DNA of 64,000 nt, from NCBI GenBank assembly GCA_949841355.1, contig CATKZP010000003.1, positions 62,001 through 126,000 on the forward strand, written 5' to 3'. The position numbers and the translations under genes were made by a program. This stretch comes from an uncultured Oscillospiraceae bacterium (GTDB taxonomy: Bacteria; Bacillota; Clostridia; Oscillospirales; Oscillospiraceae). Shown here in pieces: positions 16,639-35,416 of the stretch (positions are counted from its first letter, which is position 1; the number at the start of each line of letters is the position of its first letter). Below the pieces are notes generated by a model. It worked only from the letters and a program-made list of their open reading frames with translations. It made no database searches and was not told the DNA's origin.

Positions 16639-17439
16639 ATGGAAGCCCCCATCTACCACCTGGACAAGGTGGTGAAGGCCAAGCAGGAGGATATGGAGGA
16701 CTTCGACGGCCCCCTGGACCTGATCCTCCACCTGCTGAGCAAAAACAAAATCGAGATCCGGGATATCAGTATATCCGAGCTGCTGGACCAGTATTTGGCC
16801 TGGATGGCCCAGCGGGAGGAGCTGAATCTTGAAGTCGCCAGCGAGTTTGTCACTATGGCCGCCCACCTGGTGTTCATCAAGACCCGGATGCTGCTCTCCA
16901 TTGACGACGAGGTGGCCATGAGCGAGATGGAAGAGCTGATGGCAGCCCTAGAGGAGCACAAATCCCAGGAGACCTATGTGAAGATCAAGGACGTGACGGA
17001 GGAGCTGGGCGGACGCTATGAGTTTGGGCGGGACTACCTGCCCAAGCGGCCCGAACCGGTGAAGGCGGAAAACGCCTACCAATACGTGCATGACAAGGCG
17101 GATATCTTGACAGCAATCCGCTCGGTGCTGGCCCGGACAGACAACAAGCTGCCCCTGCCCGTGGCCGCTTTTGAGGGCATTGTGGGCCGGGAGCCCTACC
17201 CGGTGGCGGACAAGGCCCGGTCTATTTTGGACAGGCTCATCCAGTTCGGCGTGGCCCGGTTCCGGGCGCTGTTTAAAACAAGCCGCAGCCGGTCGGAGGT
17301 GGTGGCCACCTTCCTGGCTATTTTGGAGCTCTGTAAGGCCAACCGCATCCACCTGGCGGGGACGGCGGAGGACTGCACCGTCACCAGCACGGTGGACGAC
17401 CTGCCGGAGGAAGTGGACGTGACCGTTGAAAGCTACTGA
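16639..17439 (+). CDS. scpA: Segregation and condensation protein A (kleisin)
   Basis: 266 residues. ScpA is the kleisin subunit bridging the two heads of the SMC condensin complex. The hallmark near the N terminus is DFDGPLDLILHLLSKNKIEIRDISISELLDQY-type sequence (seen as DFDGPLDLILHLL and KIEIRDISISELLDQYL), followed by AAHLVFIKTRMLL. The C-terminal winged-helix region contains VVATFLAILELCKANRIHL. It has a GGGAGGGG ribosome binding site and its own promoter, and is followed by scpB in the standard order. With parS at 12856 it gives two parts of the SMC loading system in one region. Confidence 0.95.
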   Translation: MEAPIYHLDKVVKAKQEDMEDFDGPLDLILHLLSKNKIEIRDISISELLDQYLAWMAQREELNLEVASEFVTMAAHLVFIKTRMLLSIDDEVAMSEMEELMAALEEHKSQETYVKIKDVTEELGGRYEFGRDYLPKRPEPVKAENAYQYVHDKADILTAIRSVLARTDNKLPLPVAAFEGIVGREPYPVADKARSILDRLIQFGVARFRALFKTSRSRSEVVATFLAILELCKANRIHLAGTAEDCTVTSTVDDLPEEVDVTVESY

Positions 17440-17459
17440 TAGAAAGGGCGGTGCCTGAA

Positions 17460-18077
17460 ATGGAGTTAAAGGAGCTGGAGAGCGCCATCGAGGGCATCCT
17501 CTTCGCCGCGGGCGACCCCATGAGCGTGGAACGGCTGTGCCTCACCCTGGGGCAGGACCGGGACACGGTGGACAGCGTGTGCCAGCGTATGGCGGACGCC
17601 TACAGCTATGAGCGCCGGGGCATCCGGCTGGTGCGGATGGAAAACAGCTGGCAGATGTGCTCCGCGCCGGAGCAGGCGGGGCATATCCGCAAGGCGCTGG
17701 AAAACCGCAAGCCCGCCAAGCTGTCCCAGCCCGCGCTGGAGGTGCTGGCCATCATCGCCTATTTCCAGCCGGTGACCAGGGCTTACATCGAGCAGATTCG
17801 CGGGGTGGACAGCTCTTACACCGTGGGGCTGCTGCTGGAGCGGGGGCTCATCCGGGAGGCGGGGCGGCTGGCGGTGCCGGGGCGGCCCATGCAGTTTCGC
17901 ACCACCAAGGACTTTTTGCGCTCCTTTGGGATGGCTTCGCTGGACGACCTGCCCGATTTGGCTGCCGCCAGCCAGGAGGATATTCAGCTCACCATGGAGA
18001 TGGAGTCCGCGCTGCGCCGCCTCCGGGAGGCGGAGGACGGGGGAGCGCCGGAAGGCGGCGGGGAGGCGGAGGCATGA
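17460..18077 (+). CDS. scpB: Segregation and condensation protein B
   Basis: 205 residues. ScpB is the dimeric winged-helix partner that binds ScpA in the SMC complex. The conserved opening is MELKELESAIEGILFAAGDP, followed by the core ALEVLAIIAYFQPVTRAYIEQIRG and the second winged helix (LLERGLIREAGRLAVPGRP, QFRTTKDFLRSFGMASLDDLP). ATG 17460 fits the family and is well spaced to GGGCGG; the upstream GTG 17451 is not. The C terminus is an acidic, glycine-rich tail. It overlaps the next gene by 4 nt. Confidence 0.95.
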   Translation: MELKELESAIEGILFAAGDPMSVERLCLTLGQDRDTVDSVCQRMADAYSYERRGIRLVRMENSWQMCSAPEQAGHIRKALENRKPAKLSQPALEVLAIIAYFQPVTRAYIEQIRGVDSSYTVGLLLERGLIREAGRLAVPGRPMQFRTTKDFLRSFGMASLDDLPDLAAASQEDIQLTMEMESALRRLREAEDGGAPEGGGEAEA

Positions 18078-18718
18078 CCTTTTTAAAGGTGCTGTTGGCC
18101 GTCCTCGCTGCTTTGTGGCTCATCTCCCTGATCCGCATTGGGGGAAGGGTGCGCTACGGGCAGGCGGGACTGGCCGCTTTCCTGCTGATGGGGCCGGTAA
18201 AGCTCCAGCTGTTCCCTCCGGTGAGAGAGGTGGACGGAAAGTGGAAGCCGAAGGCGAAAAAACCAAAAAAGAAAAAACCGCCTGTGGCGGAAAAGCACAA
18301 AAAGGAGCCCAAGGAGGGTCAGCCCGGCACTCTGTCCCGGGTGATGAAGCTGCTGCCGGTGGTGGGACAGGCCTGCGGGGCGCTGAAGCGCAAAATCCGC
18401 ATCGACGATTTGGAGCTGGGGCTGATCTGGGGCGGCACGGACGCCGCCGCTATCGCTTTAGGCTATGGGCAGGCCAACGCCGCGCTGGGTATGCTTTGGC
18501 CCATTTTGGACAATAATTTTAAGGTGAAGCGCCACTCTTTTGCAATCAGCATGGATTATAACCGGACAGAGCCTGTGGTGGAGCTCCAGGCGGCGCTCAC
18601 CCTGACGGTGGGTCAGATATTCGCCCTGGGGGTGCACTACGGTGTGAAAGCCCTGGCGGTTTGGATCAAAAGCGGAAGGACCCCTAGAAAAAAACAGGAG
18701 GCATTGAGTCATGAGTGA
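18074..18718 (+). CDS. DUF2953 domain protein (YtfI-like)
   Basis: 214 residues. One N-terminal membrane helix (about residues 3-22) is followed by a lysine-rich linker (WKPKAKKPKKKKPPVAEKHK) and a soluble domain with LGLIWGGTDAAAIALGYGQA and a C-terminal hydrophobic stretch, matching DUF2953. In Bacillus the homologue (ytfI) sits directly before ytfJ, as here. Starts within the scpB stop (ATGA) and overlaps ytfJ by 8 nt, so the three genes are translationally linked. Role probably in sporulation, inferred from context. Confidence 0.8.
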   Translation: MTFLKVLLAVLAALWLISLIRIGGRVRYGQAGLAAFLLMGPVKLQLFPPVREVDGKWKPKAKKPKKKKPPVAEKHKKEPKEGQPGTLSRVMKLLPVVGQACGALKRKIRIDDLELGLIWGGTDAAAIALGYGQANAALGMLWPILDNNFKVKRHSFAISMDYNRTEPVVELQAALTLTVGQIFALGVHYGVKALAVWIKSGRTPRKKQEALSHE

Positions 18719-19118
18719 AAACAACCATCCCATCAACGAAGTGCTCCACACCACCATGGACAAGATCCGGGAGATGGTGGACGCCAACACTGTAGTAGGC
18801 CAGCCCATCGTTACCCAGGACGAGGTGACGCTGATCCCGGTGTCCCGGCTGTCCTTTGGCTTTGCCACCGGCGGCTCCGACTTCGGTAAGACACAGAACG
18901 TGCCTAAGAACTTCGGCGGCGGCGCGGGGGCCGGCGTGAGCGTGTTTCCTGTGGCCTTCCTGGTGGTGAAGGACGGTTCCGTCCGGCTGCTGCCTGTAGC
19001 GCCTCCTCCGGGAGACACCGTCAGCCGGGTGGTGGACCTGGTGCCTGAGATGTTTGAGAAAGTCACCGGCTATATCGACAAAAAGACCGCATCAGGGAGT
19101 GGGGAAGAGGTCCTGTGA
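18711..19118 (+). CDS. ytfJ: Sporulation protein YtfJ (GerW family)
   Basis: 135 residues. The family is forespore-expressed and needed for normal spore germination in Bacillus. Visible features are the N terminus MSENNHPINEVLHTTMDKIR, VVGQPIVTQDEVTLIPVSRL, the glycine-rich FGFATGGSDFG and FGGGAGAGVSVFPVAFLVV, and LLPVAPP. AACAGGAGG precedes ATG 18711. It is followed by dacF, another spore-wall gene. The family is essentially restricted to endospore formers and supports a sporulating host. Confidence 0.92.
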   Translation: MSENNHPINEVLHTTMDKIREMVDANTVVGQPIVTQDEVTLIPVSRLSFGFATGGSDFGKTQNVPKNFGGGAGAGVSVFPVAFLVVKDGSVRLLPVAPPPGDTVSRVVDLVPEMFEKVTGYIDKKTASGSGEEVL

Positions 19119-19128
19119 TCCCGCGCCC

Positions 19129-19158
19129 GGATAAGGCCGGACGGTAAAGGCCATACTA
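19129..19158 (+). promoter_or_regulatory. SigF/SigG-type forespore promoter for dacF
   Basis: GGATA (19129-19133) fits the SigG -35 consensus GnATR. CATACTA (19152-19158) fits CAnnmTA with an 18-nt spacer. Read as SigF, GGCCATACTA (19149-19158) follows after 15 nt and matches 9 of 10 positions. Bacillus dacF is a forespore gene, which supports this. Transcription would begin near 19165, inside the left arm of the following hairpin. Confidence 0.7.
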
Positions 19159-19194
19159 CTCCCATCTGACCATTCAGATGGGAGTGACCTTTTT
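19158..19194 (+). terminator. Terminator hairpin that sequesters the dacF ribosome binding site
   Basis: A perfect 12-bp stem (ACTCCCATCTGA at 19158-19169, complement at 19174-19185) with a CCAT loop and a five-T run at 19190-19194. ATG 19195 follows immediately. The Shine-Dalgarno GGGAG (19180-19184) is in the right arm. It serves as the ytfJ terminator and should block dacF translation on readthrough RNA. Confidence 0.8.
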
Positions 19195-20286
19195 ATGAGA
19201 AAACTGACCGCGGCACTGGCCGCTTTGACGGTTCTCGCGCTGATCTGCCCGCCGGTCCGGGCGGTGGGCACCGGGGCCGCCAGCGCCATTCTCATGGACG
19301 CGGAGAGCGGCCGGGTGCTGTACGAGCACGACATACACAAGCCCCGGCTCATCGCCAGCACCACCAAGCTGCTTACCGCGCTGGTGGCGGTGGAGCAGGC
19401 GGACGACCTGGACCAGGTGGTGACCATCAAGGGGGAGTGGCTGGGCAGCGAGGGTTCGTCCATCTACCTGAAGGCGGGGGAGGAGATCACCCTGCGGGGG
19501 CTGCTGTACGGTCTGCTGCTTCAGTCAGGCAATGACGCGGCCATGGCCATCGCCTGCCACACGGCGGGGAGCGAGGCGCAGTTTGTTGAGCTGATGAACC
19601 AAAAGGCGGCCCGGCTTGGGATGAAAAACAGCTGCTTTGCCAACCCCAGCGGCCTCAATGACGAGGCGCATTTCTCCACCGCCTACGACATGGCGCTGCT
19701 GGCCCAGGCGTGCTTGAAAAACGAGACGGTGGCGGAGATCTGCGCCACTCGGTCTATTACGCTGGGCACACGCACCTTCGTCAACCACAACAAGCTGCTC
19801 TGGCGCTGTGAGGGCTGCGTTGGGATGAAAACCGGGTTCACCGAGAAGGCGGGGCGCACTCTGGTATCCGCTGCCAGCCGGGATGGACAGACTTTGATCT
19901 GTGTGACCCTCAACGATGGAAACGACTGGAACGACCACTGCAAGCTGCTGGACTATGGGTTCGAGACCTTCCCACGCCAGGCGCTTTGCGAAGAGGGTGA
20001 GGTGCTGGGCTCGGTGGCGGTGGAGGGCAGCCTCATTCCCGCCGTGGCGGCGGTGACGGCGGACAAGGTGGGCTATCCCCTGGGTGCGGGGGAGAAGCTG
20101 AGCATGGAAGTGGAGCTGGACTGCTCCATTCGGGCCCCCTTCGAGGCGGGGGCGCAGGTGGGCGAGGCGGTATGGGAAAAGGGCGGCGAGGTGGTGGCCC
20201 GGGTTCCGCTGGTGGTTCAGAGCGGGGCGGGGCTGGATACGCGGGAGCCGCTGAGCTTTTGGCAGAGACTGTGGGGCGCGGCATGA
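19195..20286 (+). CDS. dacF: D-alanyl-D-alanine carboxypeptidase (DacF type)
   Basis: 363 residues. It is a penicillin-binding carboxypeptidase that trims peptidoglycan stem peptides; DacF-type enzymes act on the spore cortex. A signal peptide covers about residues 1-23 (basic start, LAALTVLALICPPVRA). Catalytic motifs are STTK (Ser55-Lys58), SGN (111-113) and KTG (212-214). The C-terminal domain (about 265-345) is PBP5_C-like, but the end lacks an obvious amphipathic anchor. The start overlaps a hairpin and forespore-type promoter. It overlaps rluB by 4 nt. Confidence 0.93.
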   Translation: MRKLTAALAALTVLALICPPVRAVGTGAASAILMDAESGRVLYEHDIHKPRLIASTTKLLTALVAVEQADDLDQVVTIKGEWLGSEGSSIYLKAGEEITLRGLLYGLLLQSGNDAAMAIACHTAGSEAQFVELMNQKAARLGMKNSCFANPSGLNDEAHFSTAYDMALLAQACLKNETVAEICATRSITLGTRTFVNHNKLLWRCEGCVGMKTGFTEKAGRTLVSAASRDGQTLICVTLNDGNDWNDHCKLLDYGFETFPRQALCEEGEVLGSVAVEGSLIPAVAAVTADKVGYPLGAGEKLSMEVELDCSIRAPFEAGAQVGEAVWEKGGEVVARVPLVVQSGAGLDTREPLSFWQRLWGAA

Positions 20287-21002
20287 CGGACGGAAATGAG
20301 GTGGCGGCGTTGGAAGAACGGCTGCAAAAGCTGCTGTCGGCGGCGGGGGTTTGCTCCCGCCGTCAGGCGGAGGGGTACATAGAGGCGGGCAGGGTGACGG
20401 TCAACGGCCGGACCGCCCGCCTGGGAGACAAGGCGGACCCCGCCCGGGACCGGGTAGAGGTGGACGGAGCGCCGCTGCGCGCTCCTGCGGGCCACACGTA
20501 TCTCATGCTGAACAAGCCCAGGGGCTATGTCACCACCCTGTTGGACGAGAAGGGGCGCAGGACGGTGGCCCAGCTGGCGGCCGGCTGCCCCGCACGGGTG
20601 TGGCCGGTGGGGCGGCTGGATATGGATTCGGAGGGGCTGCTGCTGCTCACCGACGACGGGGAGCTCACCCACCGGCTCACCCACCCCTCCCATGAGGTGG
20701 AAAAGGAGTACCGGGTGTGGGTGCGGGGGGATGTGGAACGGGCCCTGTCCATCCTGTCCGCCCCAGTGGAGGACGGCGGGGAGGTTTTGTGCGCCGACCG
20801 GGTGGAGCGGACGGAGGAAAAGGTCCTCACCGTGGTCATTCACCAGGGGAAGAACCGGCAGGTGCGCCGTATGTGCGCCGCGGCTGGGCTGAAGGTGGAG
20901 CGCCTGCGGCGGGTGCGGGAGGGAAATTTGCTGCTGGGGGAGCTCAAGACAGGCAGCTGGCGGCCCCTCACGCAGGCGGAGTTGCGGGATTTGCAGGAAT
21001 GA
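20283..21002 (+). CDS. rluB: Ribosomal large-subunit pseudouridine synthase (RluB/RsuA family)
   Basis: 239 residues. It converts specific rRNA uridines to pseudouridine. An N-terminal S4 RNA-binding domain (RLQKLLSAAGVCSRRQAEGY) is followed by the catalytic domain with YLMLNKPRGYVTTLLDEKGR and the active-site Asp in PVGRLDMDSEGLLLLTDDGE, and QGKNRQVRRMCAAAG. Whether the substrate is 23S (RluB) or 16S (RsuA) rRNA cannot be decided; RluB is usual at this locus after scpAB in Firmicutes. The ATG overlaps the dacF stop (ATGA), but a start a few codons later is possible. Confidence 0.9.
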   Translation: MTDGNEVAALEERLQKLLSAAGVCSRRQAEGYIEAGRVTVNGRTARLGDKADPARDRVEVDGAPLRAPAGHTYLMLNKPRGYVTTLLDEKGRRTVAQLAAGCPARVWPVGRLDMDSEGLLLLTDDGELTHRLTHPSHEVEKEYRVWVRGDVERALSILSAPVEDGGEVLCADRVERTEEKVLTVVIHQGKNRQVRRMCAAAGLKVERLRRVREGNLLLGELKTGSWRPLTQAELRDLQE

Positions 21003-27726: not shown

Positions 27727-29449
27727 ATGACGCCAATGTGAAGAGGGAGTAGAAGAATTCCTTTTGCTCCATGAGCTGGCTGAAGGAGCCCCGCTCCTGG
27801 ATTTGTCCGTTGCGCATGACGATAATCTCATCGTACTGGGCCATGAGGGCCTCATCCAGCCGGTGGGTGACCACCACTCGGGTGAGGCCGTCCAGGCGGA
27901 GGATGGCGTCAGTGACGGCAAAAGCGGTCTGGTTGTCCAGGGAGGCGGTGGCCTCGTCCAGCAGCAGCACCGGCGCGCCGCGGAGCAGGCACCGGGCGAT
28001 GGACACCCGCTGGCGCTCGCCGCCGGACAGGCCAACGCCATTTTCACCGCAGCGGTAGTCCTCCCCGCGCTGAGAGAGCAGCTCTGACAGGCCGGAGCGT
28101 TTTACAGCGCTGTCCACCTGGCCGTCCGGGAATTCCCGGAACATGGTGATGTTGCGGCGGATGGTGTCGTCAAAGAGGAACACGGACTGGCCGATGAGGC
28201 TCATAAGGTCGTATAGGCTGTCGGTGTCCACTTCCCGCAGCTCTTTGCCGTCGATGGAGATGGAGCCGCCGTAGCTGTCGTAAGCGCCCATGAGCAGATT
28301 GAGCAGGGTGGACTTGCCCGACCCGGAGCCGCCCACAACGGCGTACTTTTTGCCTGCCTCCAGCCGGAGGGACACATCCTGGAGCACCAGCTTGTCCGGC
28401 TCGTAGCCGAAGGTCACGTGGTCCAGGGAGATGGCGTCGCTGAGCACCGGCGGGATGGCTTCACCGGTGCGCCCGGCGTTCTCCTCGGTGACCTGGGCCA
28501 GCTTTTCAATGAGGGCCTGAGCGGCCTTGCGGCTGGCCCAGTACTGGGGGACAATGTTGATGGGCTGGATTACGAAGTTACACAGGTTGACGAAGATGAG
28601 CACCGTGCCCGCGGTGATGTCCCCCCGGATGGCCAGGAACGCCCCCAGGAAAAAGATGCCGAACTGAAGCATGTCGGCGCACAGGATTTGGCACACCGCC
28701 GTGAGCAGGCACTCCCACCAGTAGCGGCGGCGCTTGCTCTCCTCCACGTCGCGGTTGGCGGTGTCGAACATGTGATGGGCCTCCGACTCCGCCTTGAAGC
28801 TCTTGATGACGGAGAAGCCGGACAGCAGGTCCTTGAGCTGGGCTACAAAGCTCTCGTTCTTGTCGCTCACCACCTTTTCCCGCGCCGCCAGCTCTTTGCC
28901 CATGAGCAGGGAGCCGGCCAGGGGAAAGAAGGAGAGTACGATAGTGGCGATGGCCAGGACCGGGCTGTACCAGAACATCATGCCCAGGGTTCCAAAAAAC
29001 AGCAGGATGTAATAGACCAGCAAAAAGGTGCGCTTGAGGTAGTTTTCCTCCACCGAGTTCACGTCGTTGGTGAGCACCGAGATGTACCGGCCGGTGTTTT
29101 CCCGGGAAAAGGCGCTGATGCTCTTTTTCGACAGGTTGTGGAAGGCCAGGGACTTGTACTGGGCCAGGGCCCGGTACACAAAGCTGGATTTGGTCCGGTA
29201 CATGCCTATGGAGAGCAGAAGCATCACGACAAGAAAGATTACGGTGAAAATCAGCGTCCGCAGCAGCCAGTCCAGATCCCCGGCGGCCACCACGTCGATG
29301 ATCTCACCCAGCAGCCAGGAGCCGATGAGATTGCCGGGGCAGGACAGGACGGTCAGAAGCATGGCCAGGACGAAGCGCAGGCGGTTATTTTGGTAAAAGG
29401 ACTGGTAATACTGCCGGGCAGCGGAATTCTTTGGCGTTTTTTGGCTCAT
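27725..29449 (-). CDS. ABC transporter, fused membrane and ATPase domains (exporter type)
   Basis: 574 residues. An N-terminal six-helix ABC_membrane domain (about residues 20-310) is followed by an ATPase domain with Walker A VVGGSGSGKSTLLNLL, the Q-loop at GQSVFLFDD, signature LSGGERQRVSIARC, Walker B VLLLDEATASLD and H-loop VTHR. One half-transporter gene is present, so it would work as a homodimer; it resembles multidrug/lipid exporters and its substrate is unknown. It starts 4 nt inside the preceding XRE gene (ATGA), so the regulator and transporter form a coupled two-gene operon. Confidence 0.93.
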   Translation of the reverse strand: MSQKTPKNSAARQYYQSFYQNNRLRFVLAMLLTVLSCPGNLIGSWLLGEIIDVVAAGDLDWLLRTLIFTVIFLVVMLLLSIGMYRTKSSFVYRALAQYKSLAFHNLSKKSISAFSRENTGRYISVLTNDVNSVEENYLKRTFLLVYYILLFFGTLGMMFWYSPVLAIATIVLSFFPLAGSLLMGKELAAREKVVSDKNESFVAQLKDLLSGFSVIKSFKAESEAHHMFDTANRDVEESKRRRYWWECLLTAVCQILCADMLQFGIFFLGAFLAIRGDITAGTVLIFVNLCNFVIQPINIVPQYWASRKAAQALIEKLAQVTEENAGRTGEAIPPVLSDAISLDHVTFGYEPDKLVLQDVSLRLEAGKKYAVVGGSGSGKSTLLNLLMGAYDSYGGSISIDGKELREVDTDSLYDLMSLIGQSVFLFDDTIRRNITMFREFPDGQVDSAVKRSGLSELLSQRGEDYRCGENGVGLSGGERQRVSIARCLLRGAPVLLLDEATASLDNQTAFAVTDAILRLDGLTRVVVTHRLDEALMAQYDEIIVMRNGQIQERGSFSQLMEQKEFFYSLFTLAS

Positions 29450-30426
29450 TTCGGTTCTCCTTTGCAGCGGTGTGTATGTGGTGGGGCTGGGGCCGTGGTG
29501 GAATCGGTGGACGGTGGAGGCAGTACGTGGGACAGCCGTCCGAATGCGGTGGGACTGGGGCCGCGGGATGGGTCCAGCTCGTCGTCGTGGTCGTCCCAGA
29601 GCAGGTAAAAAGCATCATGCTTTTCCAGCAGGCATCGAGTAAAGAGAAGAAATGGGGTAAAGGCCCAGTTTTCATGGACGATATAGGCGTTGACAGAGCC
29701 CGTTTCCATCTCCAATTCCAATTTCTTCACCAGCGTCAGCTGCTCCATGCTGGCCAGCAGCTCCACCGTCTGCTCCGGGGGCTGGTTCAGCTGCTTGGCC
29801 AGCACCTCTGGTACATAGTAGCGGACGGTCAGGTCGTTGTGGAGCCGCTCCATCAGCTCCAGGCAGCCGGGCCGGGCCAGAAGGGTGAACAGGCGGCGGC
29901 AGAGATCGCGGTCCGCAAAATAGGCGGCGTAGCCCGCCTCCGGCCTGGGCCAGACGGACGTGAAGGACAGCTCGTCCGACCCCACGCCGAAGAGAAGCCC
30001 CTCTTTGATGTCCACGGCCACGCGCAGCAAAACATCTTCGCCGCCCACCCGGACGGTGCAGCCCTTGGAGTACTTGAGATCCGGCATGCTGACGGCATCC
30101 ATGCGGTCTTGCATGGCAGACCGGGAGGCCGACCAAACCAGACGGCACAGCTCGCTGATTCGCTTTTCCTTGGGAAGGGATGAGAGCCAGTGGTCCAAGA
30201 TGCTGTCCATATCCGTCACGGAGCCCCCCTCCCGGCCGAAGAGGGCGTCAACGGTTACCCCCAGCCGGTCGGCCAGGGCGGGGAGGAGCTCCACGTCGGG
30301 CGCGCCGCCCTTTTCCCACTTGCTTACCGCCTGGGCGGACACGCCTAACGGCTGGCCCAGCTGCTCCTGTGTGAGGCCCCGCTCCCGGCGCAGCTCCGCA
30401 ATGCGTTCGCTCAAAATATTGGCCAT
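29446..30426 (-). CDS. XRE-family regulator with large C-terminal domain
   Basis: 326 residues. The N-terminal helix-turn-helix (residues about 5-62: RIAELRRERGLTQEQLGQPL, VSAQAVSKWEKGGAPDVELL, LADRLGVTVDALFG) is of the common Firmicute type. The remaining 250 residues, containing a second winged-helix-like region around VPEVLAKQLNQPPEQTVELL, are not a family I recognise. The C terminus is proline/threonine-rich (LPPPSTDSTTAPAPP). It overlaps the ABC exporter gene by 4 nt and probably controls that operon in response to a ligand bound by the C-terminal part. Confidence 0.85.
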   Translation of the reverse strand: MANILSERIAELRRERGLTQEQLGQPLGVSAQAVSKWEKGGAPDVELLPALADRLGVTVDALFGREGGSVTDMDSILDHWLSSLPKEKRISELCRLVWSASRSAMQDRMDAVSMPDLKYSKGCTVRVGGEDVLLRVAVDIKEGLLFGVGSDELSFTSVWPRPEAGYAAYFADRDLCRRLFTLLARPGCLELMERLHNDLTVRYYVPEVLAKQLNQPPEQTVELLASMEQLTLVKKLELEMETGSVNAYIVHENWAFTPFLLFTRCLLEKHDAFYLLWDDHDDELDPSRGPSPTAFGRLSHVLPPPSTDSTTAPAPPHTHRCKGEPK

Positions 30427-33856: not shown

Positions 33857-35416
33857 ATGAGGACGATGGAATCTGAGAACATCATTGAGATGCTCCACAT
33901 CACCAAGGAGTTTCCCGGTATCATTGCCAACGATGATATCACCCTCCAGCTCCGGCGGGGAGAGATCCACGCCCTCCTAGGGGAGAACGGGGCGGGGAAG
34001 TCCACGCTGATGAGCGTCCTTTTCGGCCTTTACCAGCCGGAAAAGGGAGTCATCAAGAAGAACGGCAAAGAGGTAAAAATCAACGATCCCAACGACGCCA
34101 CCGCCTTGGGCATCGGCATGGTTCACCAGCACTTCAAGCTCATTGAGGTGTTTACTGTGCTGGACAATATCATCCTGGGTGCGGAGACTACAAAAATGGG
34201 CTTTCTTCAGAAAAAGGAGGCCCGGGCCAAGGTGGAGGCTCTGTCGGAGCGCTATGGTCTAAAGGTGGACCTGAATGCCAGGGTGGAGGATATCACCGTG
34301 GGGATGCAGCAGCGGGTGGAGATTTTGAAAATGCTCTACCGGGACAATGAGATCCTCATTTTTGACGAGCCCACCGCCGTGCTCACCCCCCAGGAGATTG
34401 ATGAGCTGATGACGACCATGAAGGAGTTCGCCCGGGAGGGTAAGTCCATTCTGTTCATCTCCCACAAGCTCAACGAGATCATGGCGGTGTCCGACCGGGT
34501 GACGGTGCTGCGCAAGGGCAAGTACATCGGCACGGTGGACGCCAAGGATACGGATAAACAGTCCCTGTCCAATATGATGGTGGGCCGCCCGGTACAGCTG
34601 GAGGTGACCAAGGCCCCGGCTCAGCCAGGGGCGCCGGTGCTGGACGTGCGGGACCTGTGCGTTCCGTCCAAAAGCCACAAGAAGAACGCGGTAAATCACG
34701 TATCGTTCCAGGCCAGAGCGGGGGAGATCCTGTGCATTGCCGGCATCGACGGCAATGGCCAGACCGAGCTGATCCACGGCCTGACGGGGCTGGAGAAAAG
34801 CTCCGGCGGAGCCGTGACCCTGTGCGGGGAGGACATCTCCCACGCCTCCATCAAGCACCGGGGGCAGAAGATGAGCCACATCCCCGAGGACCGGCACAAG
34901 CATGGCCTGGTGCTGGACTTCTCGCTGGAGCAGAATCTGGTGCTCCAGCGATTCAATGAGAAGCGGTTCCAGACCCACGGTTTTATCAACCGCGCGGCGG
35001 TGCGGGAGTACGCCGGGCAGCTCATTGAGCAGTACGACGTGCGCTCCGGCCAGGGACCGGTGACCATGGCCCGCTCCATGTCCGGCGGCAACCAGCAGAA
35101 GGCTATCATTGCCCGGGAAGTGGACCGGGAGAAGCCGCTGATCGTAGCCGTGCAGCCCACCCGCGGCCTGGACGTGGGCGCCATTGAGTACATCCACGGC
35201 CAGTTGGTGGCGGAGCGGGACAAGGGCCGCGCCGTGCTGCTGGTGAGCCTGGAGCTGGATGAGGTGATGAGCCTATCCGACCGCATCCTGGTGATGTACG
35301 AGGGCGAGATTGTGGGCGAGCTGGACCCCAAGCAGACCACGGTGCAGGAGCTGGGCCTTTACATGGCCGGAGCCAAGCGGATGGATTTGACCCGGAAGGA
35401 GGGTGAGGGCGCGTGA
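33857..35416 (+). CDS. Nucleoside-type ABC importer, duplicated ATP-binding subunit
   Basis: 519 residues with two ATPase halves, as in the NupO/RbsA type. The first has Walker [22 protein letters not shown]-loop [14 protein letters not shown], signature [12 protein letters not shown] and Walker [13 protein letters not shown]. The second has a degenerate Walker [12 protein letters not shown], without the lysine, but keeps [14 protein letters not shown] and a Walker B-like [15 protein letters not shown]; this asymmetry is normal for the family. ATG 33857 with AGGA is used; ATG 33866 is an alternative. It overlaps the first permease start (GTGA). Confidence 0.94.

Follow-up and report, generated by a model that had tools for sequence, protein, structure and literature searches.

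The DNA analysed here, referred to throughout as the window, is a stretch of 64,000 nucleotides from a 2.76-Mb draft genome made up of 44 contigs. Within it, scpA, scpB, a DUF2953-like gene, ytfJ, a dacF-like gene and an RluB/RsuA-type pseudouridine synthase gene follow one another in this order on the same strand:

16639-17439, + strand: scpA (Pfam SMC_ScpA, above cut-off).
17451-18077, + strand: scpB (Pfam SMC_ScpB and TIGR00281, both above cut-off).
18077-18718, + strand: DUF2953-like gene (DUF2953 at 21.3 bits, slightly below the cut-off of 22).
18711-19118, + strand: ytfJ, encoding a GerW family sporulation protein (TIGR02874 at 132.8 bits, cut-off 116.3; PF09579).
19195-20286, + strand: dacF-like gene, encoding a secreted D-Ala-D-Ala carboxypeptidase of Peptidase S11 (PF00768 at 216.7 bits; PBP5_C at 35.2 bits).
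20283-21002, + strand: RluB/RsuA-type pseudouridine synthase gene (TIGR00093 at 147.2 bits, cut-off 109.3).

The stop codon of ytfJ occupies 19116-19118, 76 nt separate the end of this gene from the start of dacF, and the start of the pseudouridine synthase gene overlaps the dacF stop. The name dacF for 19195-20286 was adopted from a preliminary description of this DNA; the product matches seven carboxypeptidase models of NCBIfam, none of them (0/7) above the model's own cut-off. Transcription of scpA, scpB and the DUF2953-like gene (16639-18718) is the likely source of RNA reading through toward dacF.

The ytfJ-dacF junction contains the following elements, of which both promoter boxes can be read directly in the sequence:

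19129-19133, + strand: GGATA, -35 box of a SigF/SigG-type promoter.
19152-19158, + strand: CATACTA, -10 box, with GG ahead of it at 19149-19150.
19158-19169, + strand: ACTCCCATCTGA, left arm of a hairpin, in which CTCCC (19159-19163) is the partner of the Shine-Dalgarno.
19164-19166, + strand: predicted transcription start region, 6-8 nt past the -10 box.
19170-19173, + strand: CCAT, hairpin loop (from sequence and folding).
19174-19185, + strand: TCAGATGGGAGT, right arm of the hairpin (from sequence and folding).
19180-19184, + strand: GGGAG, Shine-Dalgarno within the right arm (duplex with the 16S rRNA end, -6.8 kcal/mol).
19190-19194, + strand: five Ts ahead of the dacF start codon, a weak terminator tail at best.

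The preliminary description had pointed to GGATA and CATACTA boxes 18 nt apart, the latter ending on the first base of a perfect 12-bp hairpin that holds the Shine-Dalgarno in its 3' arm, and this architecture was recovered in full: the spacer measures 18 nt, the -10 box ends at 19158, where the left arm begins, and the stem consists of 12 Watson-Crick pairs, to which folding adds an outer U-G pair (19157-19186). The Shine-Dalgarno lies 10 nt from the ATG at 19195. The placement of the Ts held only in part, as the five Ts do adjoin the ATG but the stem does not run directly into them, GACC (19186-19189) intervening.

We take GGATA-N18-CATACTA to be a SigF/SigG-type promoter on the basis of the consensus for these sigma factors. 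That consensus is close to the one given in the available part of a study of C. difficile (PMC3789822). The pattern GGATA-N17/18-CATAMTA has a single match in the 2.76-Mb draft genome, at dacF, and the reversed control pattern has none (0). No promoter-like site was returned on the + strand by a sigma-70 scan of 18000-20500, and the Rfam 15 covariance models gave no match up to an E value of 1 against 18900-19400. A variant pattern, GCATA-N17/18-CATAMTA, also has one match in the genome, on another contig (L202 1501-1530; G000:C15:25554-25583). It precedes an open reading frame of about 60 amino acids (MSNLSTKELSALEDQ...), possibly a forespore or coat gene, which is followed by a second small open reading frame; by eye, no ribosome-site hairpin is evident at this site.

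The RNA of 19120-19230 folds at -42.1 kcal/mol versus a shuffle mean of -28.6 (z -4.3; 0/200 shuffles as good). The predicted cost of opening the ribosome site depends sharply on where the RNA begins. It amounts to 16.1-19.2 kcal/mol when the 5' end lies between 19050 and 19158, drops to 13.4 at 19160 and 9.0 at 19162, is lowest for 5' ends at 19164, 19165 and 19166 (4.7, 4.9 and 5.5 kcal/mol, respectively), and stands at 7.2-7.3 kcal/mol for 19167-19172. A 6-bp remnant hairpin can still form, according to folding, in RNA beginning at 19164. When long RNA was compared with RNA starting 30 nt upstream, the opening difference at dacF was 13.5 kcal/mol, the first in rank among 57 gene starts of the window (mean 0.97 kcal/mol, sd 3.1, dacF counted in).

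Within the genus, 37 of 42 genomes have exactly one match to the hairpin pattern, and none (0) of the 42 has a match to the reversed control. Every one of the good genomes carries it (24/24), and the five genomes in which it was not found have completeness values of 64, 78, 74, 76 and 89%. At all 37 loci a -35 box GNATA, matching in four of four letters, lies 17 or 18 nt ahead of a -10 box that reads CATACTA in 28 cases, GATACTA in seven, AATACTA in one and CATAATA in one, and both G residues ahead of the -10 box are present in 36/37. Left-arm CTCCCATCT and right-arm GATGGGAGTGA are invariant in the 37 loci, loop letters, loop length and the innermost pairs differ among them, and the hairpin folds with 12 to 14 pairs in each. 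The opening cost of the long RNA exceeds that of the predicted own RNA by 8.0-21.0 kcal/mol (median 13.4) in 37/37 loci, the predicted own RNA still costing 2.6 to 11.6 kcal/mol to open. The named records nearest to the window belong to the Oscillospiraceae, and many are metagenome-assembled; among them, Candidatus Enterenecus stercoripullorum and merdae (L220, L222) have the same element. A search for co-conservation of promoter and Shine-Dalgarno-hiding hairpin, suggested in the preliminary description, thus found the two together in all 37 genus loci and in many other genera; loss of stem pairing in close relatives, named beforehand as the outcome that would speak against the proposal, was not seen, and the pairing is conserved.

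On the strength of the promoter boxes, the arm pairing, the conservation of the two together and the energy difference, we consider it probable that the ytfJ-dacF junction is a read-through lock, in which the long RNA is predicted to be masked and the RNA from the gene's own forespore promoter to be open. In growing cells, RNA arriving from the scpA-scpB-ytfJ side would contain both hairpin arms, and the hairpin would hide the Shine-Dalgarno of dacF, so that the gene would remain untranslated from such RNA. In the forespore, RNA polymerase with SigF and/or SigG would start inside the left arm, at about 19164-19166; the resulting RNA would lack CTCCC, the partner of the Shine-Dalgarno, and the site would therefore be open and DacF made, presumably in this compartment only. 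The folding prediction and the conserved pairing both place the ribosome site under cover in upstream RNA, as expected of a masking hairpin, and the predicted start gives the gene's own promoter an RNA devoid of the masking arm.

The comparison was extended to the family, in which ytfJ was located in 141 of 150 genomes. Eleven of 180 loci without a dacF match were omitted, as were L137, L138, L144 and L154, for which no usable start was available, and duplicate junctions were counted once, leaving 164 rows. Complementarity to the 16S rRNA end was the criterion for picking dacF starts, and those of L113, L163, L165 and L291 look wrong. The family counts of promoters, of the upstream shuffle, of paired bases and of masked starts refer to one genome per genus, and 88 genera had a usable dacF start. 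A promoter was recognised in 64 of these and, by the rule used, not in the other 24. The full promoter was present in 39/84 genera (shuffles: mean 0.1, maximum 1), this count being restricted to 84 because 110 bases upstream of the start were required.

Since the pairs were located by folding, a table of pair types is by itself no independent evidence of covariation, and we relied for this purpose on an upstream-only shuffle and an arm swap. In the former, in which the sequence from the predicted start onward was held fixed, the real DNA hid the ribosome site better than its shuffles at the 5% level in 49/64 genera, the other 15 failing, and at the 1% level in 36/64. The latter was applied to 51 loci with a -10 box 22-60 nt ahead of the start: own arms paired at a mean of -12.5 kcal/mol, compared with -6.8 for arms swapped between dissimilar genera, and 29/51 own pairings fell within the best 5%. 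With left arms grouped into 20 clusters, the own partner was the best in 10, among the top three in 14 and outside the top three in six. Of the 853 bases that pair with the ribosome region across the 64 genera, 637 precede the predicted start.

The median difference in opening cost between long and own RNA was 8.1 kcal/mol for the dacF genes of the family and 0.1 for the ytfJ starts of 31 genomes. A mask test blind to the promoter scored 55 of the 88 family dacF starts as masked and 33 as unmasked; in the controls, 2/56 other genes of the window and 1/31 ytfJ starts were masked. Among named records, 8/10 passed, whereas Flintibacter muris (L243) and Flavonifractor sp. An100 (L271) failed; the junction of the cultured relative [Clostridium] viride DSM 6836 (L248) scores as masked. 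Besides dacF itself, the test is passed in the window by the start of 34232-35416, which sits in apparent coding sequence, and by 29446-30219 on the - strand (22.5 vs 16.9 kcal/mol, 4% of shuffles as high).

Individual junctions illustrate how the letters have changed. In L039, CATACTA is followed by GCAGCATC...GATGCTGC and then TTG, and in L048 CACATACTGTCTGTA...TACAGGCGGTGTGTG is followed by ATG, in both cases the same layout in other letters; L041, L049, L050 and others have AATAATA and then AGCACTGCC...GGTGGTGCTT ahead of the start. By eye, L133, L139 and L167 carry the -10 box in the loop, with the left arm ahead of it. A different arrangement was noticed by eye in L101, a locus that fails the mask test: AAGTATGGGG, which lies a short way into the dacF coding sequence, is the complement of its -10 region, CCCCATACT, and the partner arm may therefore have shifted into the gene.

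An alternative is that the main role of the hairpin and the T-run is to terminate transcription of ytfJ, and that the hairpin overlaps the Shine-Dalgarno as a by-product of tight packing. A consensus scan does rate the window hairpin as terminator-like, one of four such sites in 2.5 kb on both strands with 2.3 expected, and a separate terminator-like hairpin is present at the junction in L046, L110, L128, L309 and L322 (scored) and in L313 (by eye). However, the window stem is parted from its Ts by GACC, at least five Ts within the 8 bases past the stem occur in only two of 64 genera, the window being one of the two, and the 8 bases past GGGAGT contain four Ts in 36 of the 37 genus loci and three in the remaining one, never more. 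A separate terminator was scored in 3/88 family loci, as against masking in 55/88. The window hairpin thus does not combine the features of an intrinsic terminator, namely a GC-rich stem, a T-run directly behind it and conservation of both. The proposal of the preliminary description that read-through RNA would terminate here did not survive this comparison, and termination appears to contribute little or nothing. We rejected a terminator as the main function on account of the GACC gap, the unconserved T-run and the rarity of separate terminators, and regard this explanation as unlikely.

It is very unlikely that the palindrome is instead a DNA operator, binding a regulator across the start point, with the RNA pairing incidental. 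In its favour, the arms are near-identical in the 37 genus loci, even in ATCT, which belongs neither to a promoter box nor to the Shine-Dalgarno; yet the distance between the arms differs within the genus, and the palindrome at this position is a different one in other genera, several of which (by eye) have the -10 box in the loop, and this variation in spacing and letters makes an operator less likely. Since the arm letters at these 37 loci are more uniform than pairing alone demands, an additional role that depends on the sequence itself is conceivable. It is likewise highly improbable that transcription starts upstream of the hairpin and that the hairpin damps dacF translation or protects the 5' end in the gene's own RNA, for although the leader of B. 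subtilis sigG has a 5-bp hairpin of its own that cuts translation 2-4-fold (available part of PMC5942855) and a 6-bp remnant is possible in the dacF RNA of the window, transcription from the genome's sole GGATA/CATAMTA promoter would begin within the left arm, and in 60/64 genera half or more of the pairing bases precede the predicted start.

The read-through lock, as we favour it at dacF, may reach beyond the family. In other families of the order 13/22 loci were scored as masked, and elsewhere in the class 7/14, the class sample comprising 39 loci of which 14 had dacF directly downstream; by eye, the masks of L046, L187 and L192 (order) and L284 (class) are doubtful. Stems from this wider set include TCACCTGCTCATAT...ATGGGCAGGTGA in L295 and, by eye, CCCATTCATATACA...TGTATATGAATGGG in L291, a locus with a masking hairpin that was wrongly scored as unmasked because its start codon was chosen too far downstream. 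A plain terminator occupies the junction in a few genomes (L046, L309 and L322, scored; L313, by eye). The notion that unmasked genomes have a terminator in place of the mask is only weakly borne out, separate terminators being scored among unmasked loci in 2/33 cases in the family, 0/9 in the order and 3/7 in the class, with the mis-scored L291 among the three of the class. Another terminator rule scored 1/88 in the family, 0/3 in the order and 1/14 in the class; the order count covers three of the 22 loci, the dacF stretch of the rest being too short for a match, and all 22 were later rescored. L128 possibly shows a lock turned into a terminator: behind its stem, which is of the common AGCACTGTCC type, come a T-run and, further down, a new Shine-Dalgarno.

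We give even chances to the broader reading that a read-through lock on this forespore cell-wall gene is ancestral in the class Clostridia, having been kept for its function while its letters were repeatedly replaced and having been swapped for a terminator in some lineages. It would exist in two layouts, one with the left arm just past the -10 box and the other with the -10 box in the loop and the left arm upstream.

Genes for both forespore sigma factors are apparently present in the genome: a SigG-like gene matches its model from residue 2 to residue 253 of 254 (417 bits), and a SigF-like gene (C28:19545-20225) scores 252 bits, both below the curated cut-offs, as are all SigG and SigF matches in the 42 genus genomes. 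The dacF gene thus combines the two features looked for in a forespore gene, a consensus promoter and the sigma factor genes in the same genome. In the genus relatives G015 and G016 the sigG match is split, one contig carrying residues 2-96 or 2-95 and a different contig residues 91-253 or 90-253, which could reflect an assembly break or an interrupted gene. The two G residues ahead of the -10 box, present in nearly all genus loci, resemble the C. difficile SigF form, and C. difficile dacF itself stands in the SigG list, as far as the available part of that study goes (PMC3789822).

Arrangements of this kind have been described or proposed for other systems. In B. subtilis, according to the accessible part of PMC5942855, a hairpin of >20 bp was proposed to block translation of sigG (spoIIIG) from PspoIIG read-through RNA and is said not to arise in transcripts that begin at the SigF/SigG promoter of sigG itself. 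As is predicted for dacF, a forespore gene there lies behind another transcription unit and the read-through hairpin would be absent from its own RNA; the B. subtilis hairpin is larger, however, and sigG encodes a regulator whereas dacF encodes an enzyme. In phage T4, transcripts that begin at early and middle promoters further upstream form a hairpin covering the ribosome site of the homing endonuclease gene I-TevI and of soc, e and other late genes, and the late promoter sits so that late RNA lacks part of the hairpin (PMC2988022, in the part available). The T4 late genes thus share with the arrangement predicted for dacF a ribosome-site hairpin in upstream RNA that is opened by an internal promoter, although their control is temporal and operates in a phage, whereas that of dacF would be cell-type specific and operate in a bacterium; no shared descent is suggested. 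A further comparison is C. difficile dacF (CD1291), likewise a D-Ala-D-Ala carboxypeptidase gene with a SigG promoter, for which the available part of PMC3789822 mentions no hairpin. The literature searched, which covers few subscription journals, yielded no description of such a hairpin ahead of dacF. The principle is therefore known, as described for T4 and proposed for B. subtilis sigG; its place, the breadth of its conservation and the turnover of its letters look new against the literature searched.

Our results suggest that sporulating gut bacteria confine gene expression to one cell type by more than promoters, adding a translational lock that keeps stray RNA from upstream genes silent. 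They further suggest that a bacterial family, and probably a wider group, has retained a design of the T4 and sigG type as its letters changed. Further locks could be sought by the joint signature of a forespore promoter and a ribosome-site hairpin whose letters change.
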